Positions 194 to 46,402 of a stretch of 48,106 nt of DNA are shown here, one piece after another. This DNA is from Granulosicoccus sp. (GTDB lineage Bacteria > Pseudomonadota > Gammaproteobacteria > Granulosicoccales > Granulosicoccaceae). The notes under the pieces were generated by a model that ran no database searches, was not told where the DNA came from, and saw only the letters and a program-made list of their open reading frames with translations. Numbering within the stretch: the first letter of the stretch is position 1; each line of letters opens with the position of its first letter. The stretch lies in NCBI GenBank assembly GCA_013002205.1, contig JABDKN010000222.1, forward strand, positions 1-48,106, written 5' to 3'. The translations under genes and the position numbers were made by a program.

Positions 194-640
194 ATGCGGC
201 AGGGCCAGCCGGTGAGGCAGCGGGGATTCTGGACGGACCCGGAATTCTGGCTGGCTCTGGCTGCAGCACCTGTCTGCTGGTATCTCATGCTGCACCTGGG
301 TGTCAGTCGACGCGCCGGCCCACTCTCCCCGGAGCTGCTGCTGATTGCCGTGATGGTCAGTCCGGTTCTCGAGGAAATCGTGTTTCGCGGTGGACTGCAG
401 AGTTGGCTACTGAGAAAATCGCCGATGAATACCGGCTTCGCCGGCGTTTCGCTGGCCAACCTGCTGACGTCGACAGTCTTCGCAGCCTTGCACCTGTTGC
501 GTCAGCCGCCATTGTGGGCAGCGCTGGTCATGGTGCCGTCTCTGGTGTTCGGCCGCGCCCTGGAACGTCATCGGACACTGGTCTCACCGATGATCCTGCA
601 CGTCAGCTACAACTCGGGGTTCATTTGGCTGTTCGGCTGA
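194..640 (+). CDS. CPBP (CAAX-like) family intramembrane metalloprotease, small form
   Basis: A 148-residue membrane protein with the three signature motifs of the CPBP/Abi family: EEIVFRG near residue 57, a helix ending in FAALHL near residue 98, and SPMILHVSYNSG near residue 133. The Glu pair, Arg and the two His residues are the expected active-site set. Four or so hydrophobic segments are visible. It is short for the family, whose members often exceed 200 residues. The short form resembles the glutamic-type proteases that accompany C-terminal protein-sorting tags, but that assignment is inference. It starts at the ATG immediately after the hemB stop. Confidence 0.85.
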   Translation: MRQGQPVRQRGFWTDPEFWLALAAAPVCWYLMLHLGVSRRAGPLSPELLLIAVMVSPVLEEIVFRGGLQSWLLRKSPMNTGFAGVSLANLLTSTVFAALHLLRQPPLWAALVMVPSLVFGRALERHRTLVSPMILHVSYNSGFIWLFG

Positions 641-6536: not shown

Positions 6537-7889
6537 TCAGCTTAATCCCAGCTTCTTTTCAAGGTAGTGAATATTGGTGCCGCCTTCCTGGAAAGCCGGG
6601 TCATTGAAGATGTCGATGTGCAGCGGTATGTTCGTCTTGATTCCATCGATAAAGACTTCGCTGAGTGCTCCACGCATGCGCGCCAGAGCCGAGTCTCGCG
6701 TATTGGCCGACACGATCAGCTTGGCAATCATCGAGTCATAGTGCGGGGGCACCGTATAGCCATTGTAGATGTGCGTCTCGACTCGTACACCCAGGCCACC
6801 AGCCGGATGGTACTGCCGTATGGTGCCGGGCGAGGGCATGAAATTGACCGGATCCTCGGCATTGATACGACACTCGAAGGCGTGTCCCTTGATTTTTATA
6901 TCCTCCTGCTTCCAGCGTAACTCCCGACCTTCGGCAGCGTAGATCTGCTCCTTGATGATGTCGATGCCAGTGATCATTTCTGTCACCGGATGCTCCACCT
7001 GCACGCGTGTGTTCATCTCGATGAAGTAGAAGTTTCCATCTTCGTACAAAAACTCGAAGGTTCCTGCACCACGGTAGCCCAGTCGCTTGCAGGCATCGAC
7101 ACAACGTGCTCCCATATCATTCCGGGTGGCCTCGTCGATTCCCGGCGCCGGCGCCTCCTCCACGACTTTCTGGTGTCGGCGCTGCATGGAGCAATCGCGC
7201 TCCCCTAAGTGTATGGCATTACCGTGTTCGTCGCAGATGACCTGAAACTCGATGTGCCGAGGCTTCTCCAGGTACTTTTCCATGTAGACCATCGGATTTC
7301 CGAACGCGGTACCCGCTTCGTTCTGGGTCATCGCAATGGATTCTTCCAGCTTGGCATCCGACCGTACGACGCGCATTCCCCGACCTCCACCACCACCTGC
7401 TGCCTTGATGATGATCGGATAACCGATCTCATTGGCCAGTTTGAGATTGGTCTGTTGGTCACTACCCAATGGGCCGTCACTTCCAGGCACACAGGGCACA
7501 CCGGCGGCTTTCATCTCGTTGATGGCACTGACCTTGTCACCCATCAGGCGTATCACATCGGCAGTCGGACCGATGAATTTGAATCCACTGGATTCCACCC
7601 GCTCGGCAAAGTCGGCATTTTCGGCCAGGAAGCCGTAACCCGGGTGAATTGCCTCTGCGCGGGTAATTTCGGCCGCACTGATGATGGCAGGGACATTGAG
7701 GTAACTCTTCGTCGATGGTGGCGGACCGATACAGACTGCCTCATCAGCCAGCCTTACATGCTTGAGGTCGCGGTCCGCCGTCGAATACACGGCCACCGTC
7801 TGGATGCCCATGTCGCGACAGCATCGCATGATACGCAAGGCGATCTCGCCACGATTGGCAATCAGGATTTTCTTGATGGGAGTAACCAT
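6537..7889 (-). CDS. accC: Acetyl-CoA carboxylase, biotin carboxylase subunit
   Basis: A 450-residue ATP-grasp enzyme, standard for AccC. It opens with [22 protein letters not shown] and has the glycine-rich ATP lid [13 protein letters not shown], the [15 protein letters not shown] segment, [35 protein letters not shown] with the catalytic Arg, and NAEDP. It carboxylates the biotin on AccB in the first step of fatty acid synthesis. The gene begins 12 bases after accB stops, forming the usual accBC operon. Confidence 0.98.
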
Positions 7890-7901
7890 TATTCAGCGTG
7901 C

Positions 7902-8360
7902 TCAGTCGATCACGATCAACGGCTCGCCGTATTCGACCGGCTGTCCATCCTCGATCAGAATGGCGCGTACCGTGCCACTGATCTCTGCCTCGATCTGGTT
8001 CATTATCTTCATCGCTTCGATGATGCAGACCGTGTCGCCCTTGTTGACACTCTGCCCGACCTCCACGAAGGCCTTGGCCGTCGGTGAGGAGGAGCGGTAG
8101 AAAGTGCCGACCATGGGCGACTCCATGATGGTACCGGGGGGCAACAGATCCTCGGCAGGCGCTGCATCCACCGCGGCTGTCACCGGTGCGACACTGGGTG
8201 GAGCGGCAGGTGCTGGCGGCACGGCATGGGCTGCGGCTGCGTAGCCGGGACTGGATGAACGGGCAATGCGAACCGATTCCTCACCTTCGACGATCTCGAT
8301 TTCGGAAACATCCGAATCTTCCAGCAACTCGATCAACTTCTTGATCTTGCGAATGTCCAT
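7902..8360 (-). CDS. accB: Acetyl-CoA carboxylase, biotin carboxyl carrier protein
   Basis: A 152-residue protein from the ATG at 8358-8360. The N-terminal [20 protein letters not shown] segment is typical of AccB. A Pro/Ala-rich linker runs from about residue 40 to 75. The biotinyl domain carries [12 protein letters not shown] and the biotin site EAMKIMN with the modified Lys at residue 118. It shuttles carboxyl groups between AccC and the carboxyltransferase. The open frame upstream of the chosen ATG overlaps aroQ and is not coding. Confidence 0.97.
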
Positions 8361-8386
8361 GCGAAATTCCTGGTCAGTGGTCCGGT

Positions 8387-8839
8387 TCAGTGGTGATCGC
8401 CAGCGGCAAGGCGAGCAGCGGCGGCTGTGAGCGCCAGGCTGTATCCGACAGGGCCGAAGCCTGCAAGTGTGCCAACCGCAATATCGGAGAAATAACTGTG
8501 ATGCCGAAAAGACTCGCGCTGATAGATATTGGATACATGTACTTCGATGAGCGGTAGGGAAACACCCAGAAAGGCGTCCCTGAGCGCAACACTTGTATGG
8601 CTGTATCCGCCCGGGTTGACGATGGCAATGCGGCATCCTTCGGTGGCGGCCAGCTGCACACGATCGATCAGCGCACCTTCGCTGTTGCTCTGGAAGAAAC
8701 CGATGCTGACACCGTACGCTGCCGCCTCCTGTGTCAGCCGCGCTTCGATATCCGACAGCCGCACGGCTCCGTAACGTTCCGGTTCACGTGTGCCCAGAAG
8801 GTTGAGGTTTGGGCCGTTGAGCACCAATACCTGTGACAT
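8387..8839 (-). CDS. aroQ: Type II 3-dehydroquinate dehydratase
   Basis: A 150-residue enzyme of the shikimate pathway. It starts with [22 protein letters not shown], with the catalytic Tyr at residue 23. It also has [32 protein letters not shown] and [20 protein letters not shown], the last carrying the catalytic His and the substrate-binding loop. Length and motifs match the dodecameric type II family. It heads the run of minus-strand genes; accB follows after 26 bases. The ATG at 8837-8839 gives the family N-terminus. Confidence 0.97.
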
Positions 8840-8976
8840 ACTTCGACGCTCCGCAGGGGGTGGGTTCGAGCACTGCTGGCCAGATGACCAAAGATGAATG
8901 TAACTGTAAAAGATAGCATCAAATAGAGCTGATTTGCAGACAATTGGCGACATTTAACGACGAAAAGGAGTTACTC

Positions 8977-9972
8977 ATCGACCAGAACACTGATGCTACG
9001 CTGGCTTTTCGGTCACTGGACCCGATGCAGATTCTCGACGCGATCGACAGCACCGGCTGGTGTACGGATGGCCGCGTGAGTGCGCTCAACAGCTACGAGA
9101 ACCGCGTTTATTCGGTTGGCATGGAAAACGGCGAGACGCTGATTGCGAAGTTCTATCGCCCGGGGCGCTGGAGTGATGAAACCATTCTGGAGGAGCATGC
9201 GTTCTGCGATGCACTGGTAGATCATGACCTGCCGGTCATTGCCCCACTGAAAGACAGTCGCGGCCAGAGCCTGCACCGGCACGGCCCGTTTCGCTTCTGT
9301 CTGTTCAATCGTGCAGGTGGCAGGTCTCCGGAACTGGACAATCCCGAACAACTGGCTGTCATCGGACGTACCATCGGACGGCTGCACCTGGTCGCCGACA
9401 CTTTCCAGTTCGATCACCGACCCTTCATCGATGCCTTCAGACTCGGTGACGACAGCGCGGACTACCTGCTGGAATCAGATGCACTGCCGCTGGAGCAGGC
9501 GCGGGTGTACGAATCTGTCATCGATGACCTGCTGCCCGAGGTACACGACCGCCTGGACGCGGTGGATTACCGGGAGATATGCCTGCACGGTGATTTTCAT
9601 CCGGGCAACATCCTGTGGGGAAGCGATGGCACACCCCATCTGCTTGATTTCGACGACACGGCCACCGGCCCGGCCACTCAGGACCTGTGGATGTTCATTT
9701 CCGGGGAGCGGGAATACGCGCAGGCAAGACTGGGTGACCTGCTGGATGGCTATCACGAGTTCCGTGATTTCGACGAGCGGGAGCTGGCCCTGATCGAACC
9801 CCTGCGCACGCTGCGCATCATTCACTACGCAGCGTGGATTGCCAGGCGCTGGGAAGATCCCGCCTTCGTGCAGGCTTTTCCCTTCTTTGCCGAGGCACGT
9901 TTCTGGGACGAACATATCCAGTCTCTGCGGGAGCAACGTGCGGCGCTGGATGAACCCGCCCTCATCTACTGA
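8977..9972 (+). CDS. srkA: Stress response kinase A (YihE/RdoA family), start probably AUC
   Basis: A Ser/Thr protein kinase of the APH-like fold with LNSYENRVYSVG, AKFYRPGRWSDETILEEHAF, catalytic HGDFHPGNILW and metal-binding LLDFDDTATGPA. SrkA counters stress-induced death, partly by opposing toxin activity. The frame has no ATG before the conserved region except one at 9025, which would remove residues aligned in relatives. The best ribosome site is AAAAGGAG (8963-8970), six bases before an in-frame ATC (8977). That start gives 16 residues before MQILDAI, close to the E. coli protein. A TTG at 8944 is the conventional alternative but has no clear ribosome site. Function is confident; the start is uncertain. 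Confidence 0.9.
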   Translation: MDQNTDATLAFRSLDPMQILDAIDSTGWCTDGRVSALNSYENRVYSVGMENGETLIAKFYRPGRWSDETILEEHAFCDALVDHDLPVIAPLKDSRGQSLHRHGPFRFCLFNRAGGRSPELDNPEQLAVIGRTIGRLHLVADTFQFDHRPFIDAFRLGDDSADYLLESDALPLEQARVYESVIDDLLPEVHDRLDAVDYREICLHGDFHPGNILWGSDGTPHLLDFDDTATGPATQDLWMFISGEREYAQARLGDLLDGYHEFRDFDERELALIEPLRTLRIIHYAAWIARRWEDPAFVQAFPFFAEARFWDEHIQSLREQRAALDEPALIY

Positions 9973-9973
9973 G

Positions 9974-10002
9974 CCGGCATTGACAGGATGTCACAGAGCC
10001 GG
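9974..10002. terminator. Imperfect stem-loop between srkA and the CheX-like gene
   Basis: CCGGC (9974-9978) can pair with GCCGG (9998-10002), enclosing an inner TGACA-GGA-TGTCA hairpin (9981-9993). The element fills the 33-base gap between convergent genes. No T run follows, so its role as a terminator is tentative. Confidence 0.3.
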
Positions 10003-10005
10003 AAG

Positions 10006-10461
10006 TCAGGTGAAATCGAAGACCAGCTCACCGGCACCGTAGGCCCCGAGCTGCAGCGTAAAGGCCTGCATCTCACTGCCCTCCGCCTGCAGGCGTCTAC
10101 CGGCATCCGTCTCCACGGTGGTCAATTTCAAATGCTTCGACTTGTTATCCATCAACAGGCTGGAGAAGATATTCATCACTTCGTAGAAGTTCTCCGATGC
10201 CACCTGCGTCAGCTCATTATCCTCCACCATCCCCTCGGCACCACCTGGCGGAATCATGGACAATGCGCATCCCAGCGCCGCCGCCGTGGGCAATGCGCAA
10301 CTGCAGGTTGCGACCGTCACACCCTCGTCGTTGGCGTACAGGGCGACATGACTCAGTCCATCGATAGCCGTTTCTGGCGCCTGGCTGGCCTTGGCATCTA
10401 CACCCAGGATCATCGTGAGCATCTCGACGAGCTGCGCTGCTTCCGGTTTCCGGTAGTTCAT
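10006..10461 (-). CDS. CheC/CheX-like protein next to a CheY-like regulator (tentative)
   Basis: A 151-residue soluble protein without a signal peptide. I do not recognise it firmly. The centre (LGCALSMIPPGGAEGMVEDNELTQVASENFYEVMNIFSSLLM) has the look of a CheC/CheX phosphatase helix, in which an E...N pair lies on the helix that attacks the phosphoryl group of CheY. It starts two bases after the CheY-like gene ends, so the two are certainly co-transcribed. A role in dephosphorylating that partner is inference from this context. It may instead be an uncharacterised regulator partner. Confidence 0.6.
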   Translation of the reverse strand: MNYRKPEAAQLVEMLTMILGVDAKASQAPETAIDGLSHVALYANDEGVTVATCSCALPTAAALGCALSMIPPGGAEGMVEDNELTQVASENFYEVMNIFSSLLMDNKSKHLKLTTVETDAGRRLQAEGSEMQAFTLQLGAYGAGELVFDFT

Positions 10462-34873: not shown

Positions 34874-36286
34874 ATGACCCGATTCCTGCCCGCCGCATCC
34901 GCCATCACGCCGCCAGTGAAAGCCAATGACAGTGACAGGGGGATACCTGCTGTTTTGCTGAATCGCTGCACTTTGCCTGCACTGGCTACGGTGGCCGCGC
35001 TGTCTGCCATGATGGCGACCCCGGTGTGGTCGGGAGATGCACGCTCCATTGCGCTGGGAGGTTCAGTCATCGCCAACGGCCAGGGTGTCCACGGTGCGCT
35101 GGAAAACCCCGCCTCACTCATGGCCATGAAACGCCGCAAGGAGAAGTTTCACTTTCTCGTCGGTATGTCTGCAGAAATTCGTGACACCGGCGACGCCATC
35201 GACACGCTCAGTGACGATGACAATCAGGGACTGATCGACGACCTGGAAAGAGAGATAGACATTCTGAGCAGCAAGGAGGTCCAGTGTGACCCATTGCTCG
35301 GCAGTGATCAGGACATCTGTGTGGAGGGAACCCAGCCTGTCGCCGATTTGTCCACCCGGCTTCTGGACATTCTGGACGTCATCGATGAAGAGACCATCGA
35401 TGGCCAGGGCAATCTGGACCTGGGCATCGCGCTGACGAAGAACAAGGTTCCCATGGCGGTCAACCTGCGCATGAGTGCAACCGGCGCAGGTCGACCGGAT
35501 ATCGCCGAGGAGGACATGGACTACATCCAGGAATTCGAGGACCTGCTGGGTGATGATCAGTTGCTGCTGGAGGAGCTACGCCGATCGGAATACATCGAAG
35601 CCAGTGCACTGGGTGTTCCGTTGGGTGTAGATCAACCGGAAGACGTGCTGTCATCGGAAGCACAGGGTAGCGCACTGCTTCGCACACAGCTCGGTATCAG
35701 CTTTGCCGCGACCTTTCAGGTCGGTGAGTTTCTGGTCGATGCCGGTGTAACACCCAAATTCTCATCACTGAAAGCCTACAACGTGGACGCCAACGTACGC
35801 GACGAATTCGATGACTCCACGCCATCGTTGCAGGATCGCTTCGATGACAGCGAAGTAACCGAGAGCTCATTCACCGTCGACGTGGGTGCATCGATGGCAT
35901 TGAAACGCTACCCGCTTCGGCTGGCAGCCACTGTGCACAACCTGATACCGGAATCCATCGAGACGACAGATGGGTATGAATTCGAAACCAGTCCACAACT
36001 GGTCGTCGGTGCGCTGTTCCAGAGAGGCATGTTGAGTGTCAATGGCGACCTGGCGCTCAATGAAGGCAAGGTGGACAATTTTGCCACGCAGAAAATGGGG
36101 GTTGGCGTGGAATATGGCACTGCCAAGTATTCGGTCCGGGGAGGCCTTAGTCATGATGCTTCCCGCGCGGCGGACGCCACGGCAGTGAGTTTCGGTGTCG
36201 GCCTGGGACCGTTCCAGATAGGTGGCAGGCTCTCTGGACTGGATTCACTGGAAGCCGGCGCACAGGTGGCCTACAGTTTCAAGTAA
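34874..36286 (+). CDS. TraF-like outer-membrane barrel protein (PF13729 type)
   Basis: A 470-residue secreted protein. The signal peptide is long, with a hydrophobic core LPALATVAALSAMMATPVWS near residue 50. The mature start, DARSIALGGSVIANGQGVHGALENPASLM, is typical of the conjugal transfer TraF-like family (PF13729), a FadL-like barrel fold. An acidic helical section (residues 100-230) precedes a beta-strand-rich C-terminal half ending in an aromatic-type tail (AYSFK). No conjugation genes are nearby, so a transfer role is unlikely; an outer-membrane channel is more plausible. Its 3' end overlaps the convergent gene by 16 bases. Confidence 0.82.
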   Translation: MTRFLPAASAITPPVKANDSDRGIPAVLLNRCTLPALATVAALSAMMATPVWSGDARSIALGGSVIANGQGVHGALENPASLMAMKRRKEKFHFLVGMSAEIRDTGDAIDTLSDDDNQGLIDDLEREIDILSSKEVQCDPLLGSDQDICVEGTQPVADLSTRLLDILDVIDEETIDGQGNLDLGIALTKNKVPMAVNLRMSATGAGRPDIAEEDMDYIQEFEDLLGDDQLLLEELRRSEYIEASALGVPLGVDQPEDVLSSEAQGSALLRTQLGISFAATFQVGEFLVDAGVTPKFSSLKAYNVDANVRDEFDDSTPSLQDRFDDSEVTESSFTVDVGASMALKRYPLRLAATVHNLIPESIETTDGYEFETSPQLVVGALFQRGMLSVNGDLALNEGKVDNFATQKMGVGVEYGTAKYSVRGGLSHDASRAADATAVSFGVGLGPFQIGGRLSGLDSLEAGAQVAYSFK

Positions 36287-37020
36287 CGCAACGGTCGACG
36301 GATGGTTGAACGGGCCTGGCGTTGTGCTCGTGTATCCAGTCCACTGTTCTCGAGATGTCTTGACCAGTCCCTGGCCTGCAGGCTATCCGGACTGAGTACA
36401 CCGATGGCATTCTCGTAGGCAGGCAGTGTCCAGCGATAGCCGTAGCCGAATCCTGCATCACTTAATTCGGCAACGGCCCGCTTGAGCTCGGGCGCATTGA
36501 CACAGTTGACCACCAGTATGCCCCGCGTATCCAGGTGTTCTCGCAACAGAGAAACCCAGTAAGCTGTCAGCGGGCAAGCCCGAACAGGTTCGCCCTCCTG
36601 ATGCCCGAACAGATCGTCGATGATCAGATCGAAGGGCTCGCCGTCATAGTCCGCCAGCCAGCGTATGGCATCAGCGTGAATCAGCTCGACCCGCTCATCG
36701 TTCACCCCGAACCAGAACCTGGCAATCTGCAGATGCTGTGCATCGACTTCGACCCCGGACAGATGGCTGAACTGGCACAGCTGCTGGAGCTGGCGGATGA
36801 CCGCCCCTCCCCCGACCCCAAGCAGCAGGATGCGTCGCGTGCACTCCACTGGTCGATACAGAACGGGCAGGCTCAGACAATCCCATACGCCCCCTGCAAA
36901 CGGCTTGTTCGCATTCCACTGACTGTGAAACACGCGATTGCTGTACAAGCGAATGGAGGCACCTGAACGTCTTACACTGTAATGGGTACCCAGGGAATCG
37001 AGTTCCCAGATTACGCTCAT
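36271..37020 (-). CDS. Spermidine synthase-like / SAM-dependent methyltransferase-fold protein
   Basis: A 249-residue Rossmann-fold protein. Motif I is ILLLGVGGGAVIRQL. The acidic end of strand 2 is SGVEVDAQHLQIARFWFG, and LIHADAIRWL and FDLIIDDLFG follow, as in the spermidine synthase family. The canonical catalytic Asp position is D in IIDDLFG. It is shorter than SpeE at the N-terminus, so substrate is uncertain; many such orphans are not polyamine synthases. It is the last gene of the minus-strand envelope cluster, 61 bases after the NnrU-like gene, and overlaps the convergent outer-membrane gene. Confidence 0.8.
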   Translation of the reverse strand: MSVIWELDSLGTHYSVRRSGASIRLYSNRVFHSQWNANKPFAGGVWDCLSLPVLYRPVECTRRILLLGVGGGAVIRQLQQLCQFSHLSGVEVDAQHLQIARFWFGVNDERVELIHADAIRWLADYDGEPFDLIIDDLFGHQEGEPVRACPLTAYWVSLLREHLDTRGILVVNCVNAPELKRAVAELSDAGFGYGYRWTLPAYENAIGVLSPDSLQARDWSRHLENSGLDTRAQRQARSTIRRPLRYLKL

Positions 37021-37081
37021 GATCGCGTCACGACATCATCCGTGGCCACTTCATCCGTGCATCGTACCGGTGCGCAGGACC

Positions 37082-37666
37082 TCATGCACCAAATGGACTG
37101 ACACCGATCAGGCGGACGTGCAGCCACAATGCAAATACCAGCCAGGCACCGGTTCCAGCCACTACTGCGATGGCATCCCTGCTCAGGCCGGGCATGGGAG
37201 TATGAACGATGCCCAGCCGCCGGTCCCGCTTGCGCGAACTGATGTAATCAAGCACTGCCCACGACAGGAATGCACCGAACAGGATCACATCGCCCAGGCG
37301 GCCGTTGGCGAGCAGATGGGCAAAGGCCCACACCTTGACACCCAGAATCATCGGGTGACCGACCGCTGACTTGATGTGCGTGCCGGGTATGTAGGCCGCG
37401 ACCAGCAGAATGAAGGCAGGCAGGGTCAGCAATGCCGCTACATGGGACATGCCGGCAGGGGGGTACCAGAGGTTCACCGGGGCCTGTCTCGTCTGCGAAT
37501 ACCCCATGACGATCAGCACCAGTCCAATCAGGGAGACCACGGAATACACCGCCTTGTAGGCATGCTCACCGCGTTGGTCGATCACTTCTGCCCGCCATGT
37601 TTCTGCGGCAATGCGCACCGAGTGCACAGCCAGAAACAGCGCAAGTCCACAGAGCAACAGCAACAT
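37082..37666 (-). CDS. NnrU family membrane protein
   Basis: A 194-residue protein with about six membrane segments. NnrU markers are VHSVRI near the N-terminus and GTHIKSAVGHPMILGVKVWAFAHLLANG in the middle, with conserved His residues that may bind heme or a metal. NnrU is linked to nitrite/nitric oxide metabolism in denitrifiers and is related to the isoprenylcysteine methyltransferase-like fold. No denitrification gene is in the window. It starts five bases after the TerB-like gene stops. Confidence 0.88.
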   Translation of the reverse strand: MLLLLCGLALFLAVHSVRIAAETWRAEVIDQRGEHAYKAVYSVVSLIGLVLIVMGYSQTRQAPVNLWYPPAGMSHVAALLTLPAFILLVAAYIPGTHIKSAVGHPMILGVKVWAFAHLLANGRLGDVILFGAFLSWAVLDYISSRKRDRRLGIVHTPMPGLSRDAIAVVAGTGAWLVFALWLHVRLIGVSPFGA

Positions 37667-37671
37667 GATGT

Positions 37672-38121
37672 CTAGTCCCCGATTACCCTGAGCTTGGCTT
37701 GCATGAAGTCACGGTGCTTGATATGGATCAGATCACACAGCTTGCGAATCGTGTATTCCTCGTGGCCATCGATGCTGCCGTCAGCCAGTGCCACTCGCCA
37801 CATCTGTTCCACCAGTGCCAGCTTGTTCCGCTTGTCAAAGTGTGAATTAATGATACTAACATGCTCATGCAGCGATACTGCACTGTCGGCCTCGTTGAAA
37901 GCCTCTGCAACCACCTCACGCAATTCGGTTTCCGGCAATGTTGAAGCCTGCTCCATGGCTGCCAGGATCGCTGCACGTTCTGTTGTGTCGATGTCGTGAT
38001 CGGCACGCGCTATTTCCACCAGCAATAACGCGCTGACTCGTTCGATATCGGTTGCTGATATCTGCCGGGACGCATCAGGTTCCAGTGTCGATGCAATTTT
38101 GTCAAACCATCTGCTCAGCAT
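37672..38121 (-). CDS. TerB-like (tellurite resistance family) protein
   Basis: A 149-residue acidic helical protein of the TerB fold. Two equivalent motifs are present: LLLVEIARADHDIDTTERAAI and MWRVALADGSIDGHEEYTIRKL. Each carries the Asp/Glu residues that form the metal-binding sites. Solitary TerB proteins are widespread and mostly of unknown function; the full tellurite operon is absent here. The ATG at 38121 gives a natural family start just after the upstream gene ends. Longer starts at 38169-38202 would overlap that gene. Confidence 0.87.
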   Translation of the reverse strand: MLSRWFDKIASTLEPDASRQISATDIERVSALLLVEIARADHDIDTTERAAILAAMEQASTLPETELREVVAEAFNEADSAVSLHEHVSIINSHFDKRNKLALVEQMWRVALADGSIDGHEEYTIRKLCDLIHIKHRDFMQAKLRVIGD

Positions 38122-38125
38122 GGGA

Positions 38126-39493
38126 TCAGTGGACCACCTGTCGCCGTTCACCTTCCAGCTGGATTCTGTCATCGACATCCGGCGCCCCATCGATTCTGGC
38201 ACGAGCCCCCGTTGTCAACCGCACGCCGTCGCGGTTGGTACACCAGTCCACCCCGGTTATCATCGGCGAGGCGGTGCCAAGCCGGGTAGCGAAAAAAGCG
38301 TCGAACCCAGGCGTTGAACCATAGACGCTTTCCAGAACCCATCGGGCTCGTGGGCTGACCAGCGGGTCCGCCACGCGGTTCTTTACACCCCAGCCGACGG
38401 TCAATTCACTGCAGCTGTAATGCTGTTCGTTCTGCGGCTTCTGCACAAAGGCGAGGTAATAGTCCAGATTGAATTCCAGCTTCATCAGTGTCGTGGCAAA
38501 CAACGTAGCGAAATCCTCACGCCAGGTACTGTAGGCATAGTAACGAACGGCGCCATCGATTGCCATTTCGCCTCCGACATAGGCAGGTGTCAGACCTGTC
38601 TGCAGCTCTGATGCCTGCTCACCGCCGAAGCTGACCAGCGCAAGGTCATACAGGGTCTGCGAGTAAAGCGGCAGTTCATTTGCCAGTTGCGGCGAAAGAA
38701 AGAATTCACGATTCTGGAACAGCGCATCGGTGGGTGTCATGGTGATATCCAGAGTTGCAATACTGGCAGCAGGAAGGTAATCGACGGCGTGCGCCAGTTC
38801 GTGATACAGCAACCGGTACATGGGAATTCGGATGTCCTTCAGAGTGCGTTCCTGCCTGTCGGTCAGGCTGAAATACCGGATGGCAGGACTGTTGCCTTCG
38901 CGCAGTGTGCCGATATCCCAGAACTGCAGATCCCGACCAAAGTCATTGCGATAATCCTGCTGGATCGATACGTTTGCCTTTTCATCGATAGTCAGCCATA
39001 GATTACCCGGATCCAGTTGAATACCACCGGTCCCGGTCCAGTAGTTGGAAGGGCGTACCGTACTGCCGATGACGATGGATGTCAGTGCACCAAATAAAGT
39101 TATCATGCCCTCCGGCGCATCATCAAGCACTGATTCGAAGTGTCTGCCCATCCAGTCATGGGTTACCAGTACCCGGTGCATGATGTCTTCGCGGGTAAAA
39201 TCCGGTGTAGCCTGTGAAATGAACGGCAACGTGTCCAGTGAGCAGGCATCATCGCTGGACTCTATGAGCGCACACTGCCTGAGTACCGTGGCGTAGGGAC
39301 TGTCTTGTCGGTAGGCATAGAGCCGATCAAGTCCCCTGACATCAGAGCGAGCTACCAGATCTTCTGCCGGTGTCGCCGCCGGATCGTCATTGTCCGGTGA
39401 AACACCCGTTTCAGGCAGTGATTCACCGGCTGAGCCGCCGCAACCTGCCAGCCATCCCGCCAGCACAGCGCCAAGTAGCCCTGCTCTGAACAC
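38126..39493 (-). CDS. Lipoprotein with HExxH zinc-metallopeptidase motif, uncharacterised
   Basis: A 455-residue lipoprotein. The signal is FRAGLLGAVLAGWLAGC, with the lipobox Cys at residue 18. After a Pro/Asp-rich spacer the only enzyme-like motif is HELAH (residues 231-235, in LLYHELAHAVD). A candidate third zinc ligand is Glu326 in WREDFATLFA, as in gluzincins with an ExFA motif. I do not recognise the family. It starts with GTG, seven bases after GGAG. It follows the OmpA-like gene by 33 bases and belongs to the envelope cluster. It may cleave or sense cell-surface proteins, which is inference. Confidence 0.78.
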   Translation of the reverse strand: MFRAGLLGAVLAGWLAGCGGSAGESLPETGVSPDNDDPAATPAEDLVARSDVRGLDRLYAYRQDSPYATVLRQCALIESSDDACSLDTLPFISQATPDFTREDIMHRVLVTHDWMGRHFESVLDDAPEGMITLFGALTSIVIGSTVRPSNYWTGTGGIQLDPGNLWLTIDEKANVSIQQDYRNDFGRDLQFWDIGTLREGNSPAIRYFSLTDRQERTLKDIRIPMYRLLYHELAHAVDYLPAASIATLDITMTPTDALFQNREFFLSPQLANELPLYSQTLYDLALVSFGGEQASELQTGLTPAYVGGEMAIDGAVRYYAYSTWREDFATLFATTLMKLEFNLDYYLAFVQKPQNEQHYSCSELTVGWGVKNRVADPLVSPRARWVLESVYGSTPGFDAFFATRLGTASPMITGVDWCTNRDGVRLTTGARARIDGAPDVDDRIQLEGERRQVVH

Positions 39494-39526
39494 CGCGTTT
39501 CTCCATCAAACAGACGCCTTGCAACC

Positions 39527-40615
39527 TTACCTTATCTTTATCTCCACACGGCGGTTCAGGGCACGACCAGCGGAAGTATTATTGTTACTGATGGGACGGG
39601 TTTCTCCATAGCCCATGGTGGTCATACGTGAAGGTGACATGCCCTTGCTGGCCAGATAGTTGTAAACCGCTTCAGCACGCCGGATCGAAAGACTCATGTT
39701 GTAGGACTCAGAAGCAATCCAGTCAGTGTGGCCTTCAATGACGATTTCCGATTCCCGGTCACGCATACTCTCGGCAAAAATATCCAGCTTGCGCATGTCC
39801 TCCTCATTGAGATCCGACTTGTCAAATTCGAAGTGCGGCACGGGAGACACAATCGGCTCGATCGAGACCGGGCTCTCGGGCACCGCGGGTTCGATTGCGG
39901 TCTTGTCGGCCGCCGGTACTGGCAAGGCGGGCTGTATCGGTGGAATCAGCGGCACTGCTGGCACGTCACCGAAACGCTTGAGAATGCCGACATTTGCATA
40001 TTGTGCATCCGTGTCCAGGCTCATCAGTTCGGTACGCAGGGCGAATCCATTGCGGAACCCGTACTCCAGACCCAGGCCAAAGGCTGCATGCGTCGGATAG
40101 TCACGGAAGTAGTCCACACGGTCTGCATCGTTCTCCATATGCCCGATACCCACACGAGCATAGACCGACAAACCTTCTCGCCTGAACAGTCCTTCAGGTT
40201 GCGAATCAGCCAGTACGAATCCGCTACGCGAATTCACCAGATAGCCCAGCAGACTCAAACCGAATACCTGGTAGTCGACAGATCCCGCAGCAGTACCCAG
40301 AAACTCGACTTCAGCCGTACCAAGATCGGCCACATAGACTTCGACACTCAACATGCGGTTGAGGTCATAGCCCAGGCCGAGGTGGGCGCCAGTATCACTG
40401 TTGTCACTGATCGTCAGTGCATCCGATGGCGATTCCGGTTCCACGCGGGTCAATCCCAGCCCGCCGGTCACGTAGACGCGCTTGCTGAAATCAGCGTCGC
40501 GCATCTCCTGCGCGTGCAGGCCTGGTATGGCCGCACCGGCCAGCAGTGCGGCAGAGGTCACCACCAGGCTTATCGTGTGGGCAATCGCCTGCGCTTTTCT
40601 GATAGGCAACCTCAT
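39527..40615 (-). CDS. OmpA-like outer-membrane protein
   Basis: A 362-residue protein with signal peptide (AHTISLVVTSAALLAGAAIPGLHA). A small beta-barrel (about residues 40-215) begins RVYVTGGLGLTRVEP. A Pro/Ala/Val-rich linker follows (PLIPPIQPALPVPAADK...), then an OmpA C-terminal peptidoglycan-binding domain: FEFDKSDLNEEDMRKLD, VIEGHTDWIASESYN, LSIRRAEAVYNYLASKG and GRALNRRVEIKI. It links the outer membrane to peptidoglycan. The ATG overlaps the stop of the preceding SdrD-like gene (TGATG), so translation is coupled. Confidence 0.92.
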   Translation of the reverse strand: MRLPIRKAQAIAHTISLVVTSAALLAGAAIPGLHAQEMRDADFSKRVYVTGGLGLTRVEPESPSDALTISDNSDTGAHLGLGYDLNRMLSVEVYVADLGTAEVEFLGTAAGSVDYQVFGLSLLGYLVNSRSGFVLADSQPEGLFRREGLSVYARVGIGHMENDADRVDYFRDYPTHAAFGLGLEYGFRNGFALRTELMSLDTDAQYANVGILKRFGDVPAVPLIPPIQPALPVPAADKTAIEPAVPESPVSIEPIVSPVPHFEFDKSDLNEEDMRKLDIFAESMRDRESEIVIEGHTDWIASESYNMSLSIRRAEAVYNYLASKGMSPSRMTTMGYGETRPISNNNTSAGRALNRRVEIKIR

Positions 40616-42780
40616 CACGACACTCCTCTCTCAGCCTGCAAAGCGGTCGCTCTTGCCCTGGCGCGTCGGCGCCAGGCTGCAACTGTGAGCAGAATCCAGG
40701 CAGTGAACAGAGACAGGCTGCCAATACCGGAACCGTGGACGCCGGTCTCCAGTGTCAGGTTGTCACAACCACACTCGATGAAATCGTTCTGCTGATTGTC
40801 GTTCAGATCGCTGTAACGTATCACCGTGACCAACACATTGCCCGTAGAACGTGTTCCATCCGCATCCTCCATCACGTAGAAAAAGGTATCCGCGCCATAA
40901 AAACCGTAGTCTGGACGGTAGTCGAGCATATTGTCGACGATGGTGATTGTAGAGTTCGGTGACTCGGATACGGTGATCAAGGTCAGTCCGAGACCGGCAC
41001 CGTCCACATCATTGAGCAGTACGTCGAGCGTGGCCGAACGTCCCTGATTGACTTCAAATTCATCATCGATGGCATCCGTAGTCGAATCGTCTATTGGTGT
41101 GCCGCCATCGGTACCACCATCGCCGGTGCCGGTGGTCGTGCCGCCATCGGTGCCGCTATCGGCAGTGCCGGAGTCCGTGCCGCCATCGGTACCAGCGTCG
41201 CCGGTGCCGGAGTCCGTGCCACCATCGGTGCCGCTATCGGCGGTGCCGGAGTCCGTGCCGCCATCGGTGCCGCTATCGGCGGTGCCGGAGTCCGTGCCGC
41301 CATCGGTACCAGCATCGCCAGTACCGGTAGCCGTGCCATCTGTCGAACCGCTGTCTACGGACCCGTTACTTCCATTGGCATCAATGAACGGGAAATACAC
41401 GGGTTCTGTATCCCCGCCGGCCACCATCAGCGGATGCGGGTTGGTCCCCGGCGCTGCAACCAGACCAGGTGGCAGTTCGGGATCGGATTCGTCCATGACC
41501 ACGAGGTAATTCCCATCAGGAATGCCCGGCAATACGAAATTACCACTCATGTCACTGTCGATGGGGTCGCCGACCGGCGCATCGACGCCGACGTCCAGTA
41601 CCCCATTGCCGTCGGCATCGACATACAGGGTAATACCGATGTCACTGATACCGGCTTCGTTTGGTTGCCGCACACCGTCCTCGTTGACATCATTGAATAC
41701 GGCACCGCTGGTCACATTCAACTCATCTGCGACAAAGTAGCCGGACAGCCCGCCGTAGATATCTGCATCGTCACCGGGAACGATATAGTCATCCGATGTA
41801 TCGTCCGGGAAGCTTGCCGGGTCCAGCAGGTTGTGATCCTCGGCATTGACGTCGTCAGCGAAAAAGGAAAACCCGTAGTAACGCTGTCCGGGGTTCAGAC
41901 CAAGACTGGCCGTAGAGACGAAAGCCATGCCAACCGACTCGAACGAGCGTTCGGTTTCGGCAGGATAGCTGTGTGGTTCGTTGTATTCGTTCTGCAGGAA
42001 TGAATAGGTGTGCTGCAGATCGGTGACGCCATAGCACAGTGCAGGTTCGACACAGCCGTTGGCACCGACCAGCATCATGGGTCCATAGGCTGCTGGCTGT
42101 CCCAGCATATCCAGTTCGAGGATCGCCGCCATCTTGACCGGATTGTTGCTGGACTTCTCGGAGGCAACATGCCCGGCCAGGCCCATTGCATTCTGATCGA
42201 ACGGTGCCAGTACACCGTAGTCGAACACGTAATCCAGGCGCTCTATATTCTTGGCATCCGGCAATTTGTTCGAGAACAGGTCGACCGCTCCGCGATTCAG
42301 TACGCGACTGGCCAGCATGGCAGGAATATCGCAGTTTCCGGTAGCAGAACCATCACTGGGGTAGTCGGCTGCAAACTGTCGCGACGCCTCTCCATCTGAA
42401 AGTCGCTCGACAAAGATCCCGCAGGGCTCCCCGGTGGTGACGCCGGGAATGTCGTCCCGCCGCAGCTCTACCCGGTCCGCAGCCAGCGCGTAGGAAAACT
42501 GGCGACCATCACTGGTAAAGCCTTCCATGATCTGATTGGAGCCCATTCCCCACTGGTATTCGATACCTTTCGCTGTATAGGTGAACGGCGTAGCCGGCAC
42601 CAGGCTCGTCTGGATGGAGGAAACCTGCCCGGCCGCCTGCGCACCACACGATGCGGCGACACCGGCGAGTAAGAGGGCCATGCTGCGCAGGCGGGTATTC
42701 TCCCGTCGCTGACCTGCCTCGCTGGCGCCAAAGCTGCAAGGCGCGGCATGTCTATGCGGTCTTCCACTGCAAATCGCCAT
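40615..42780 (-). CDS. Secreted SdrD-like repeat protein with hydrophobic C-terminal anchor
   Basis: A 721-residue surface protein from the ATG at 42778-42780, which has GGAG five bases upstream. The signal peptide has a long n-region and core MALLLAGVAASCGAQA. Then come about 300 residues without a clear family, an SdrD B-like domain (about 354-445) with Ca-binding loops DVNEDGVRQPNE and DADGNGVLDVG, and a Gly/Thr/Asp/Ser repeat (about 482-560). A cadherin-like domain (AIDDEFEVNQGRSATLDVLLNDVD) follows. The end has CGCDNL, a TM helix (SLFTAWILLTVAAW) and RRRARARA, a tripartite sorting-type tail. Adhesion or surface display is likely. Confidence 0.82.
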   Translation of the reverse strand: MAICSGRPHRHAAPCSFGASEAGQRRENTRLRSMALLLAGVAASCGAQAAGQVSSIQTSLVPATPFTYTAKGIEYQWGMGSNQIMEGFTSDGRQFSYALAADRVELRRDDIPGVTTGEPCGIFVERLSDGEASRQFAADYPSDGSATGNCDIPAMLASRVLNRGAVDLFSNKLPDAKNIERLDYVFDYGVLAPFDQNAMGLAGHVASEKSSNNPVKMAAILELDMLGQPAAYGPMMLVGANGCVEPALCYGVTDLQHTYSFLQNEYNEPHSYPAETERSFESVGMAFVSTASLGLNPGQRYYGFSFFADDVNAEDHNLLDPASFPDDTSDDYIVPGDDADIYGGLSGYFVADELNVTSGAVFNDVNEDGVRQPNEAGISDIGITLYVDADGNGVLDVGVDAPVGDPIDSDMSGNFVLPGIPDGNYLVVMDESDPELPPGLVAAPGTNPHPLMVAGGDTEPVYFPFIDANGSNGSVDSGSTDGTATGTGDAGTDGGTDSGTADSGTDGGTDSGTADSGTDGGTDSGTGDAGTDGGTDSGTADSGTDGGTTTGTGDGGTDGGTPIDDSTTDAIDDEFEVNQGRSATLDVLLNDVDGAGLGLTLITVSESPNSTITIVDNMLDYRPDYGFYGADTFFYVMEDADGTRSTGNVLVTVIRYSDLNDNQQNDFIECGCDNLTLETGVHGSGIGSLSLFTAWILLTVAAWRRRARARATALQAERGVS
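41100..41335. repeat. 39-bp tandem repeats in the SdrD-like gene
   Basis: The + strand core CCATCGGT occurs at 41105, 41144, 41183, 41222, 41261 and 41300, an exact 39-base period over six copies. Each unit codes for 13 residues of the type GTDGGTDSGTADS. The period keeps the frame, so copy number can vary without inactivating the gene. Confidence 0.93.
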
Positions 42781-43808: not shown

Positions 43809-44255
43809 ATGATGAAACACCTTAAACAGATTATTATCGGGACCGTCGCCGTTGCCACGGTCGCAGCCGGCGCCACTGTATACGCGCAACGAGGCGAAGG
43901 CCACGGCCAGGAGCGGATGATAGAGCGCGTGAGCAGCAGACTGGAACTTGACGACAACCAGAACGCGGCGCTGAGTGCCTTTGCCGCCGAGCTGACAGAC
44001 ATGCGCGACCTGATGCGCGGTAACGGCACCAGTATGCGGGAAGAGTTCAAGGCCCTGATCGAGGCGGAAACCTTCGACCAGACCAGGGCGTTGAGCATGA
44101 TCAACGAGCGTGTGGCAGTCTTGCAGGCCAACGCACCGGAGCTGGTAGTTGCCGCTGGCACGTTCTTTGACGGGCTCTCGCCTGAACAAAAATCACAGGT
44201 CCGGGCGCTTGCAGAACGAGGTGGCCACCGCCATCACGATCGCTGGAATCATTGA
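43809..44255 (+). CDS. Spy/CpxP-like periplasmic chaperone-type protein
   Basis: A 148-residue periplasmic protein. The signal peptide (KHLKQIIIGTVAVATVAAGATVYA) is followed by a helical, charged domain with the Spy/CpxP features: RLELDDNQNAALSAFAAEL and a later LSPEQKSQVRAL copy of the LTxxQ motif. The tail RGGHRHHDRWNH is His-rich and may bind metal. The family blocks misfolding of envelope proteins or restrains the sensor kinase. AGAGGA lies five bases before the first of two ATGs. The regulator and kinase genes follow, giving a CpxP-CpxR-CpxA-like arrangement. Confidence 0.88.
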   Translation: MMKHLKQIIIGTVAVATVAAGATVYAQRGEGHGQERMIERVSSRLELDDNQNAALSAFAAELTDMRDLMRGNGTSMREEFKALIEAETFDQTRALSMINERVAVLQANAPELVVAAGTFFDGLSPEQKSQVRALAERGGHRHHDRWNH

Positions 44256-44306
44256 CAGTACTGATCGACGCCGGTGAGCGGCACCGATTACGCTAAGCTG
44301 TAGATC

Positions 44307-45020
44307 ATGCAATCGGTGCTGCTCATTGACGACGACGGCAAGCTGGCAGAAGTGCTGGGAGAGTACTGCGCGCGCTTCGGTATCCGGATCGACCCGGCAC
44401 TTACTCCCGGTGCCGGCCTGGCCAAACTGGCGCGTGATCACTATGACGCCGTCATCCTGGATGTCATGCTGCCGGAAATGGACGGCTTCGAGGTGTGCAA
44501 GCGCATTCGACAGCAAAGCGACGTCCCCGTCATCATGCTCACCGCTCGCGGTGATGTGACCGACCGCATCGTTGGCCTTGAGCTCGGTGCCGATGACTAC
44601 CTGCCCAAACCGTTTGATCCCCGGGAATTGATCGCCCGACTTCAAGTCAACATCAGGCGTCACGCCCGTACCGCCGCCGCTGAGGGGTCACCAGCTGGCG
44701 CGGATCTCCATTTCGACGGACTCTCCCTGTATCCGCTGCAGCGCGAAGTCCAGGTCAATGGAATTCCTGTTGCGCTGACCACCATGGAGTTTGCCCTACT
44801 GCATCTGCTGAGTTCCGCACCGGGCAAGGCGTTTTCACGCGATGAAATACTGGGCAGTCTGAAAGGCACCGACAACGAGCTGTTCTCCCGATCGGTGGAT
44901 ATCCTGGTCAGCAGGCTGCGCGCCAAACTGAAGCCATTGCAGCCGATCCGGACGCTGCACGGGGCCGGTTATGCCTTCGTGCTGCAGCCGCAGGACCTCG
45001 CCTCTGGCGGCAAGACATGA
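44307..45020 (+). CDS. OmpR/PhoB-family response regulator (CpxR-like)
   Basis: A 237-residue regulator. The receiver has D8-D9, phospho-acceptor D52 in AVILDVMLPEMDG, the Thr in MLTAR and the Lys in YLPKPFDP. The winged-helix output domain (about 140-230) has LTTMEFALLHLLSSAPGKAFSRDEIL and RSVDILVSRLRAKL. Its stop overlaps the kinase ATG (ATGA). With the Spy-like gene 51 bases upstream it forms an envelope-stress unit. Whether it is an orthologue of CpxR or a related regulator (RstA-like) cannot be settled here. Confidence 0.95.
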   Translation: MQSVLLIDDDGKLAEVLGEYCARFGIRIDPALTPGAGLAKLARDHYDAVILDVMLPEMDGFEVCKRIRQQSDVPVIMLTARGDVTDRIVGLELGADDYLPKPFDPRELIARLQVNIRRHARTAAAEGSPAGADLHFDGLSLYPLQREVQVNGIPVALTTMEFALLHLLSSAPGKAFSRDEILGSLKGTDNELFSRSVDILVSRLRAKLKPLQPIRTLHGAGYAFVLQPQDLASGGKT

Positions 45021-46402
45021 TCCGGATGCTGGCATCGTCACTGTCCCTGCGTCTGCTGGGTATCTTCGTGGTGACGGCTGTGCTGGTCATGCTCATCCTG
45101 ATTGCACTGTTCACTCGGGGTCTCAGTGTCCAGTGGGCCCGCTCGATACGACCACATCTGGTGCAGTACGTACAGTACGTGCAACAGGACCTGGGCAGCC
45201 CGCCACAACCGGCCAGAGCCGCCGCGCTCGCGCGTCGGCTGCCGGTGGACATATACATATTCCGGGCGGAGCGACTCCTGCATTCCACTACCAGCCGAAA
45301 GCTGGACATCGAGCAGCTCGATTTCGAACCGGTTGCCCGACACCTGGATGGTCGTGCCCTCGACTGGCAGGACAGATCTGCCCCGAGCGGAGTACCCATT
45401 GCCTCGCTGTCGCATCAGCACGGTCCCCATCGAATATTGCGCATCCTCGATGGCGAGTACACGATCTACTACGATCTGCGCGAATCAAATCTGCGACGTG
45501 GCGGCCGGCGTGCCAGCGATGATGAGCTGCTGCTGGCACTGGCGGCACTGGCACTGGTACTCAGTGGCAGCTATCTGCTCATTCGCCAGCAACTGTCACC
45601 CATCCGCCAGATTCAGAAAAGTGTAGGCATCATGAGTGAGGGCACCTTGAGCCACCGTATCGCGCGTAAAGGTAACAGCGACCTGGATGAACTGGCCAAC
45701 AGCATCGATGCCATGGCCTCACGCCTTCAAGCCATACTCGATGCCAAGCGACAGTTGCTGATTGCCCTCAGTCACGAACTGCGTTCCCCGATCACACGTG
45801 CGCGGATCAACGCCGAACTACTCCCCGAATCCCGAAACCGATCCAGACTGCTGGAAGACCTGTCGGACATGGAACAGATGATCCGCGACATCATGGAATC
45901 CGAGCAGCTTCAGGGACAGCATGCGGTCCTGAATCTGGAAAAGCTCGATCTGGCGGAGCTGTTCCGCACTGAACTTGCGCGACTGGCACCGGGCACTGAA
46001 CTGCAGCTGGGAAAATCCGGCAGCACGCTACCTTTCAGCGGTGACGCGACCCGGCTGCGGATCATGCTCAGAAACCTGGTCCACAACGCTCAGCAACACG
46101 GTAAGAGCAAGGATGGTAAAACGCACCTGCAGGTCTTCCTGGAGGCAAAGGCTGATGGATACCAGTTGCGCGTGGAGGATGAAGGGCCTGGTATCAGCAG
46201 AGAGCACCTGGGCGAGGTTTCCGATCCGTTTTACCGACCCGATGTGTCACGCAGCCGGGAAACGGGTGGGTTTGGTCTGGGGCTGACCCTCGCCCGTCTG
46301 GTAGCCGAAGCTCATGGCGGAGAACTCTCAATCGAGAGCGACCCTGCCCTCAGGCCGGGCACATGCGTACGCGTGCAACTGCCCCTTCGGCAACGGACAT
46401 GA
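45017..46402 (+). CDS. Membrane sensor histidine kinase (CpxA-like)
   Basis: A 461-residue kinase. TM1 lies near residues 13-36, a periplasmic loop of about 135 residues follows, and TM2 near 175-192 leads into a HAMP linker. The HisKA domain has His253 in LIALSHELRSPITRARI. The ATPase domain has N box MLRNLVHNAQQHG, G1 VEDEGPGIS, F box DPFYRPDVSRS and G2 GGFGLGLTLARL. It phosphorylates the regulator encoded by the overlapping gene. The periplasmic loop has no recognised sensor domain; the Spy-like protein may be its ligand or target. Confidence 0.95.
   Translation: MIRMLASSLSLRLLGIFVVTAVLVMLILIALFTRGLSVQWARSIRPHLVQYVQYVQQDLGSPPQPARAAALARRLPVDIYIFRAERLLHSTTSRKLDIEQLDFEPVARHLDGRALDWQDRSAPSGVPIASLSHQHGPHRILRILDGEYTIYYDLRESNLRRGGRRASDDELLLALAALALVLSGSYLLIRQQLSPIRQIQKSVGIMSEGTLSHRIARKGNSDLDELANSIDAMASRLQAILDAKRQLLIALSHELRSPITRARINAELLPESRNRSRLLEDLSDMEQMIRDIMESEQLQGQHAVLNLEKLDLAELFRTELARLAPGTELQLGKSGSTLPFSGDATRLRIMLRNLVHNAQQHGKSKDGKTHLQVFLEAKADGYQLRVEDEGPGISREHLGEVSDPFYRPDVSRSRETGGFGLGLTLARLVAEAHGGELSIESDPALRPGTCVRVQLPLRQRT

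Follow-up and report, generated by a model that had tools for sequence, protein, structure and literature searches.

In the 48,106-nucleotide contig JABDKN010000222.1 of Granulosicoccus sp. (assembly GCA_013002205.1; the whole contig is hereafter called the window), a block of six genes on the minus strand, lettered A to F in the order of reading, opens with two genes that look like a surface protein and its own outer-membrane anchor. With a probability that we put at about 0.68, A and B form a surface-protein/anchor pair similar to TraA/TraB of Myxococcus xanthus and made in 1:1 proportion, and the single open reading frames (ORFs) in which both are joined in other genomes are polyproteins cut at two sites. 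The architecture of the two proteins, its conservation, the coupling of the genes, the joined forms that keep both cleavage signals and the presence of sorting enzymes are all seen directly in the genomes compared.

The window is contig C59 of its own draft genome, G000, of 4.46 Mb. Block conservation was followed by comparing gene neighbourhoods in G000 and 23 congeners, and class-wide counts come from a sample of 369 genomes of the class. The genomes compared are mostly metagenome-assembled genomes (MAGs), and among named relatives it is Granulosicoccus and Granulosicoccaceae MAGs whose A genes are closest; one congener, G023, is a complete genome in a single contig of 7.78 Mb. Signal peptides were judged by eye together with hydropathy. 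A search of open-licence papers for Granulosicoccus surface proteins returned nothing relevant.

Gene A runs from an ATG at 42780 to a TGA at 40617-40615, and B starts either at the ATG 40615-40613, which shares a TGATG junction with the A stop, or at a GTG at 40618 that gives a 4-base overlap. The two genes stand side by side in G000, as they do in every one of the 21 congeners that have both on a contig, and the pair recurs in other Gammaproteobacteria as well. Among 21 distinct pairs of separate genes, B can overlap A by 4 bases in 18 and by a single base in another, while the genes of the other two lie 3 and 12 bases apart. In genomes beyond the genus, both genes also occur joined in single ORFs, with no runs of N, at L113/L161 (genome G074, 1079 aa), L163 (open at its end), L166 (open at its start), L169 (1186 aa) and L174 (1358 aa). 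In each of them the A sorting tail leads, with no stop codon, into an Arg/Lys loop, the B signal peptide and mature B, as exemplified by the L113 junction (...TGVDGIGVGSAGFGVLALSLAAVFRRRPRQVSRLIPALLPAGALVALSLVGAAVAD-VSPDDREF...). Both states are found within a single genus, g53, where G074 has the joined form and G317 and G213 the separate one. On a tree of the A domain, from which L170 and L172 were left out, the joined state requires about four changes (bootstrap 3-5), and the well-supported branches force at least two. In G002, what looked like a fusion of A and B (L087, also L159) was discarded as an artefact, a run of N at residues 602-636 bridging two pieces.

The architecture of both products is given in Table 1. 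As the first-pass annotation had proposed, A looks the part of a displayed protein, with its signal peptide, surface domains and sorting tail, and B that of a peptidoglycan-linked barrel, presenting both hallmarks of the OmpA family, the barrel and the peptidoglycan-binding OmpA domain. As regards fold, the label "SdrD-like" given to A is justified for one B-type domain: in the A model, residues 317-434 superpose on the B-type domains of Staphylococcus aureus SdrD over 105 residues with a root-mean-square deviation of 2.4 Å. It does not extend to the remainder, which consists of another N-terminal domain and Big_9. Apart from the SdrD-type domain, the structural matches listed cover the A N-terminal domain poorly, and no solved structure was found that matches A or C by sequence. 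The combination of SdrD-type domain, Big_9 and linker suggests that A is an adhesin.

The last 42 residues of A are tripartite, with a Gly/Ser motif, a transmembrane helix and a basic C-terminus. Complete A proteins of congeners end in the same way, with a motif of the (E/Q)xGxxGSGxGS type, a hydrophobic helix and an Arg-rich end. Tails of orthologues pass the cut-off (15.5 bits) of the GlyGly-CTERM model TIGR03501, with 17.7 and 16.0 bits in G032 and 20.1 bits in G021; for the window A tail this is the sole sorting-tail match, a weak one, and LPXTG gave no match. Rhombosortase (TIGR03902), encoded elsewhere in the genome (C86:21612-22070, 147 bits, cut-off 84), is the predicted processing enzyme of A. 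It is over the cut-off in G000 and 22 of the 23 congeners versus none of 14 control genomes, and in the class sample it accompanies the full A domain in 12 of 12 genomes versus 114 of the 357 others. Type II secretion, judged by GspD, is also present in G000 (612 bits, over cut-off).

Homologues of the A N-terminal domain occur in other Gammaproteobacteria, Bacteroidota and Verrucomicrobia, where they carry differing sorting tails. Six of six Bacteroidota proteins tested have type IX secretion system (T9SS) type A tails over the cut-off, and those of Verrucomicrobia/Opitutales MAGs have PEP-CTERM-like tails (L204 over the cut-off, L188 below). The A surface module thus combines with whichever sorting system the lineage has, and its lineage-specific tags support an outward-facing role for the module. 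Two contigs labelled Campylobacterales (L170, L172) encode very long A-domain proteins with no barrel and may be misbinned.

We propose that A and B are the two parts of a surface unit, in which B would serve A as a dedicated outer-membrane barrel gripping the peptidoglycan. Overlapping stop and start codons would lead to similar amounts of both proteins. In the joined form, the sorting tail, the Arg/Lys loop and the B signal peptide would make up an internal hairpin whose positive loop would remain cytoplasmic; A would then be released by the sorting protease (rhombosortase, or MrtJ for tails of the JDVT type) and B by signal peptidase. By analogy with TraA/TraB, the pair is most likely an adhesin or a surface-recognition complex in which B would tether A to the wall. 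For cleavage, location at the surface, binding between A and B, and adhesion we rely on inference here.

The first-pass annotation had taken all six genes as one envelope cluster. Its description of the locus is accurate: six ORFs on the same strand at 36271-42780, gaps of at most 61 bases (from A to F: -1/-4, 33, 4, 5 and 61) and the TGATG coupling are all present, and its names for B (OmpA), D (TerB), E (NnrU) and F (spermidine-synthase-like) agree with our domain scans. Terminator-like sites within the block are no more frequent than chance, so a single A-F transcript is possible. A reading of the block as a defence system was rejected, PADLOC having returned only a weak methyltransferase match to F.

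All six genes are found together only in G000, G012 and G018. F lies on the far side of the block wherever the congener contig extends to it, and where contigs reach, the genus-wide frame reads CpxP-like, response regulator, kinase, NUDIX, A-B ... F, TraF_2, PlsB. C is at the site in G000 and 13 of the 23 congeners; nine congeners keep A-B-F without it. D is present in most C-bearing genomes and in two lacking C, and E in five genomes, the slots between B and F being otherwise filled by YdjM-like, DoxX-like or MscS-like genes (named by eye). Since the content between B and F varies while A-B-F is constant, the block is a stable A-B-F frame with a changeable operon built around it and not one six-gene system. 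D and E, once cast as helpers, are variable passengers, and F is syntenic with A-B across the genus. Outside the genus, C-F were not found beside A-B, barring a distant TerB match in L161 (L165 does show C-F beside A-B, and is a congener); the unit that recurs widely is only the first two genes.

This variability bears on the role first assigned to C, that of cleaving A at the surface in a display-and-shedding system of A, B and C supported by D-F, which we consider unlikely. Non-recurrence of the A-B-C trio, together with separate transcription, had been named as the result that would sink this proposal, and the trio does recur, C standing directly after B in the same 13 congeners. The label of HExxH lipoprotein is borne out by the HELAH motif and the LAGC lipobox, and C has no Pfam or NCBIfam match. 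In its model (pLDDT, predicted local distance difference test, 86), HELAH 231-235 and E326 lie in separate predicted helices; the motif and the downstream Glu are conserved in most of 19 aligned C rows, and VIA matches to M34/PPEP-type gluzincins (lethal-factor-like, PPEP-3, BACCAC_01431) reach Z 5.7-7.8, which is middling and does not stand out, while Foldseek gave no match at E 0.001. Against the shedding role, the copy of C in L080 no longer has HExxH and that in L084 has it in damaged form, and C is found in seven genomes of the class sample, four of which have no detected A (G070, G162, G220, G267), while in G213 it is on a different contig from A. Together with the nine congeners that lack C at the site, these A-less genomes leave an obligatory role of C in processing unsupported. 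C may plausibly act as an accessory surface peptidase but is not a core part; it may trim surface proteins without being required. A second C copy in G023 (L073, G023:2226000-2244000) is followed by a fragment like the start of D, away from any A-B pair.

The layout of the joined forms is not restricted to A-B. We hand-picked 20 other long ORFs with B-type barrels, mostly for their long frames, 18 of them in the genus (three from G023) and two in G032. In 19 of the 20, an internal sorting tail and then a signal peptide stand just before the barrel, and many of these internal signal peptides have a lipobox (LSGC, LTAC, LVAC); the pick L217 turned out to be a separate barrel ORF. Judged by their order of parts, the long ORFs are likely polyproteins. 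NCBIfam models run on 24 internal tails (E up to 1) matched JDVT-CTERM (NF033191) in 15, the best at 3.4e-12, MYXO-CTERM in five and GlyGly-CTERM in two, many of the single matches being under the cut-off. The window itself encodes MrtJ, outside the A-B operon and about 40 kb from the pair, and an MrtJ match shares a contig with A-B genes in ten congeners; MrtJ is predicted to process the JDVT-tailed relatives that the genome encodes elsewhere. A separate counterpart is also seen in G000 (contig C217, L085, about 6578-10017, minus strand), where a JDVT-tailed adhesin ORF overlaps a lipobox barrel + OmpA gene at an ATGA-type junction.

Having both parts within one chain, the joined ORFs could in principle be stable fusions, with A held in place covalently by the B barrel and OmpA domain, and with the internal tail and signal peptide left over from gene fusion. 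We regard this as quite unlikely, because two hydrophobic segments flanking a net-positive loop persist in 24 of 24 internal junctions, an AxA-type site or a lipobox is rightly placed in most of them, and an uncut transmembrane hairpin would keep the barrel at the inner membrane. We hold it slightly more probable than even that the joined ORFs reveal a widespread polyprotein route to a surface protein and its outer-membrane anchor, in which a shared Arg/Lys-loop hairpin would be removed by rhombosortase or MrtJ plus signal peptidase I or II, and lineages would alternate between joined and overlapping separate genes. Very unlikely is the idea that A and B are unrelated envelope genes sharing a promoter, their adjacency and overlap reflecting operon compaction only: the D and E slots show that unrelated genes enter this operon, but the A-B pair is kept in families without C-F, its overlap is almost always retained, and the two genes were merged into one ORF more than once.

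Several observations weigh against a TraA/TraB-like pair processed in this way. The window A tail scores 12.9 bits, under the TIGR03501 cut-off of 15.5, and G021, whose tail passes, has no rhombosortase over the cut-off (it is a MAG, 94% complete). Many genomes of the class have rhombosortase, and those 12 that carry A come from just five families, so that the effective sample is small and the association of A with rhombosortase is weaker than the count implies. Synteny of A-B-F inside one genus partly reflects shared ancestry. A has no detected relation to TraA, and B is like TraB in the OmpA domain only.

To call the block an undescribed system, as was first done, is too strong, myxobacterial TraA/TraB being a close architectural precedent. 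In M. xanthus, TraA/TraB is the kin-recognition adhesin for outer-membrane exchange; the two ORFs overlap by four bases, TraB combines a barrel with OmpA, the proteins form 1:1 complexes, and TraB is needed for adhesin function and was proposed as a wall tether (PMC3325183, PMC6626042, PMC12045341). A-B shares with them the overlapping gene pair in which a tagged surface protein (signal peptide, stalk, sorting tail) precedes a barrel + OmpA protein. Unlike TraA, A has a GlyGly-CTERM-like tail instead of MYXO-CTERM and no match to PA14 (Pfam scan) or Cys-rich repeats; unlike TraB, B gives 69.6 bits against the TraB model NF033763 (cut-off 700), through the OmpA domain alone. Similarly, the Myxococcus protein MXAN_5598 has an adhesin, an internal MYXO-CTERM, a barrel and OmpA in one chain, and its authors have proposed processing and surface anchoring for the N-terminal part, internal sorting tags having earlier been held functional (PMC11980579). 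The joined A-B forms share its order of parts. The layout was thus already noted in Myxococcus for one protein, described as single and atypical, whereas here it appears widespread, in many loci of several genera, with at least two tail types other than its own and beside separate overlapping forms.

As for sorting systems, the tripartite tail of A, along with the rhombosortase and type II secretion that the genome encodes, recalls GlyGly-CTERM/rhombosortase substrates such as VesB of Vibrio cholerae. That tail was described at the extreme C-terminus (PMC3237569), whereas the joined forms carry it internally and A has a dedicated OmpA partner; the rhombosortase papers PMC3237569 and PMC13393428 make no mention of internal tags, polyproteins or OmpA partners. 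Most long-ORF tails match the JDVT-CTERM model and MrtJ is in the window, yet the JDVT-CTERM system was described as a pair of genes, for MrtJ and a single target (PMC11980579), whereas MrtJ here would have several large targets, encoded elsewhere in the genome. The proteobacterial dedicated sortase system with PdsO also encodes a sorted surface protein with an OmpA-like partner; B differs in giving 54 bits against TIGR03789 (cut-off 152.2), via the OmpA domain, and A lacks an LPXTG tail. With SdrD and other MSCRAMM proteins, A shares the B-type (CnaB-like) fold but not the LPXTG anchor, ending instead in GVHGSGIGS, a transmembrane segment and RRR. Gene C shares with gluzincins of the M34/PPEP type the HExxH and a downstream Glu on a helix.

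Table 1. Features of the A-F block, MrtJ and related proteins in other loci (window positions, or locus identifiers where these are given)
Feature	Position or loci	Strand	Remarks
Gene A, predicted secreted surface protein	40615..42780	-	signal peptide, unnamed N-terminal beta domain, SdrD-type B domain, Thr/Gly/Asp-rich linker, Big_9, C-terminal sorting tail
Gene A, conserved N-terminal domain	41773..42636	-	about 290 aa, no Pfam name
Gene A, SdrD-type B (CnaB-like) domain	41371..41724	-	VIA Z 12.9 to S. aureus SdrD
Gene A, Big_9 / tandem-95 domain	40825..41073	-	E 1.6e-12
Gene A, GlyGly-CTERM-like sorting tail	40618..40743	-	GVHGSGIGS + hydrophobic helix + RRRARAR
Gene B, OmpA-type outer-membrane beta-barrel with C-terminal peptidoglycan-binding OmpA domain	39527..40615	-	
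Gene B, signal peptide	40511..40615	-	MRLPIRKAQ...AAIPGLHA, cleavage site before QE by eye
Gene B, beta-barrel domain OMP_b-brl (PF13505)	40007..40534	-	residues 29-204, E 3.1e-12, over cut-off
Gene B, OmpA peptidoglycan-binding domain (PF00691)	39551..39832	-	E 5.3e-24, over cut-off
Gene C, lipoprotein, putative gluzincin metallopeptidase	38126..39493	-	LAGC lipobox, HELAH + conserved downstream ED motif
Gene D, TerB-domain protein	37672..38121	-	likeliest start ATG 38121, 4 bases after C stop
Gene E, NnrU-family membrane protein	37082..37666	-	NnrU match
Gene F, spermidine-synthase/methyltransferase-like	36271..37020	-	Spermine_synth/Methyltransf_25 matches
MrtJ, JDVT-CTERM glutamic-type intramembrane protease, outside A-B operon	194..640	+	106.8 bits, cut-off 75
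Long ORFs with internal tail, Arg/Lys loop, signal peptide and OmpA-type barrel	L205-L216, L218-L224		frames up to 7519 aa
A N-terminal domain with T9SS tails (Bacteroidota) or PEP-CTERM tail (Opitutales MAG)	L184, L187, L191, L193, L195, L202, L204		

Around the block, CpxP/Spy-like, response regulator and CpxA-like kinase genes (window 43809-46402, plus strand) are divergent from it and present in many congeners, which suggests envelope-stress control nearby. On the other side, a TraF_2 / PorV-like protein (window 34874-36286, plus strand) is encoded convergently with F and is syntenic across the genus.

C-terminal sorting tags have mostly been reported from the extreme end of the protein. 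Should the joined forms be cut in the proposed way, the tag could be recognised without a free C-terminus, and a hairpin that is later removed would let cells pair surface proteins 1:1 with dedicated barrels that grip the wall. The TraA/TraB plan would then extend past myxobacteria to Gammaproteobacteria and to rhombosortase, and the succession of tail, Arg/Lys loop, signal peptide and OmpA barrel would offer a simple signature with which to find the partner anchors of large adhesins.

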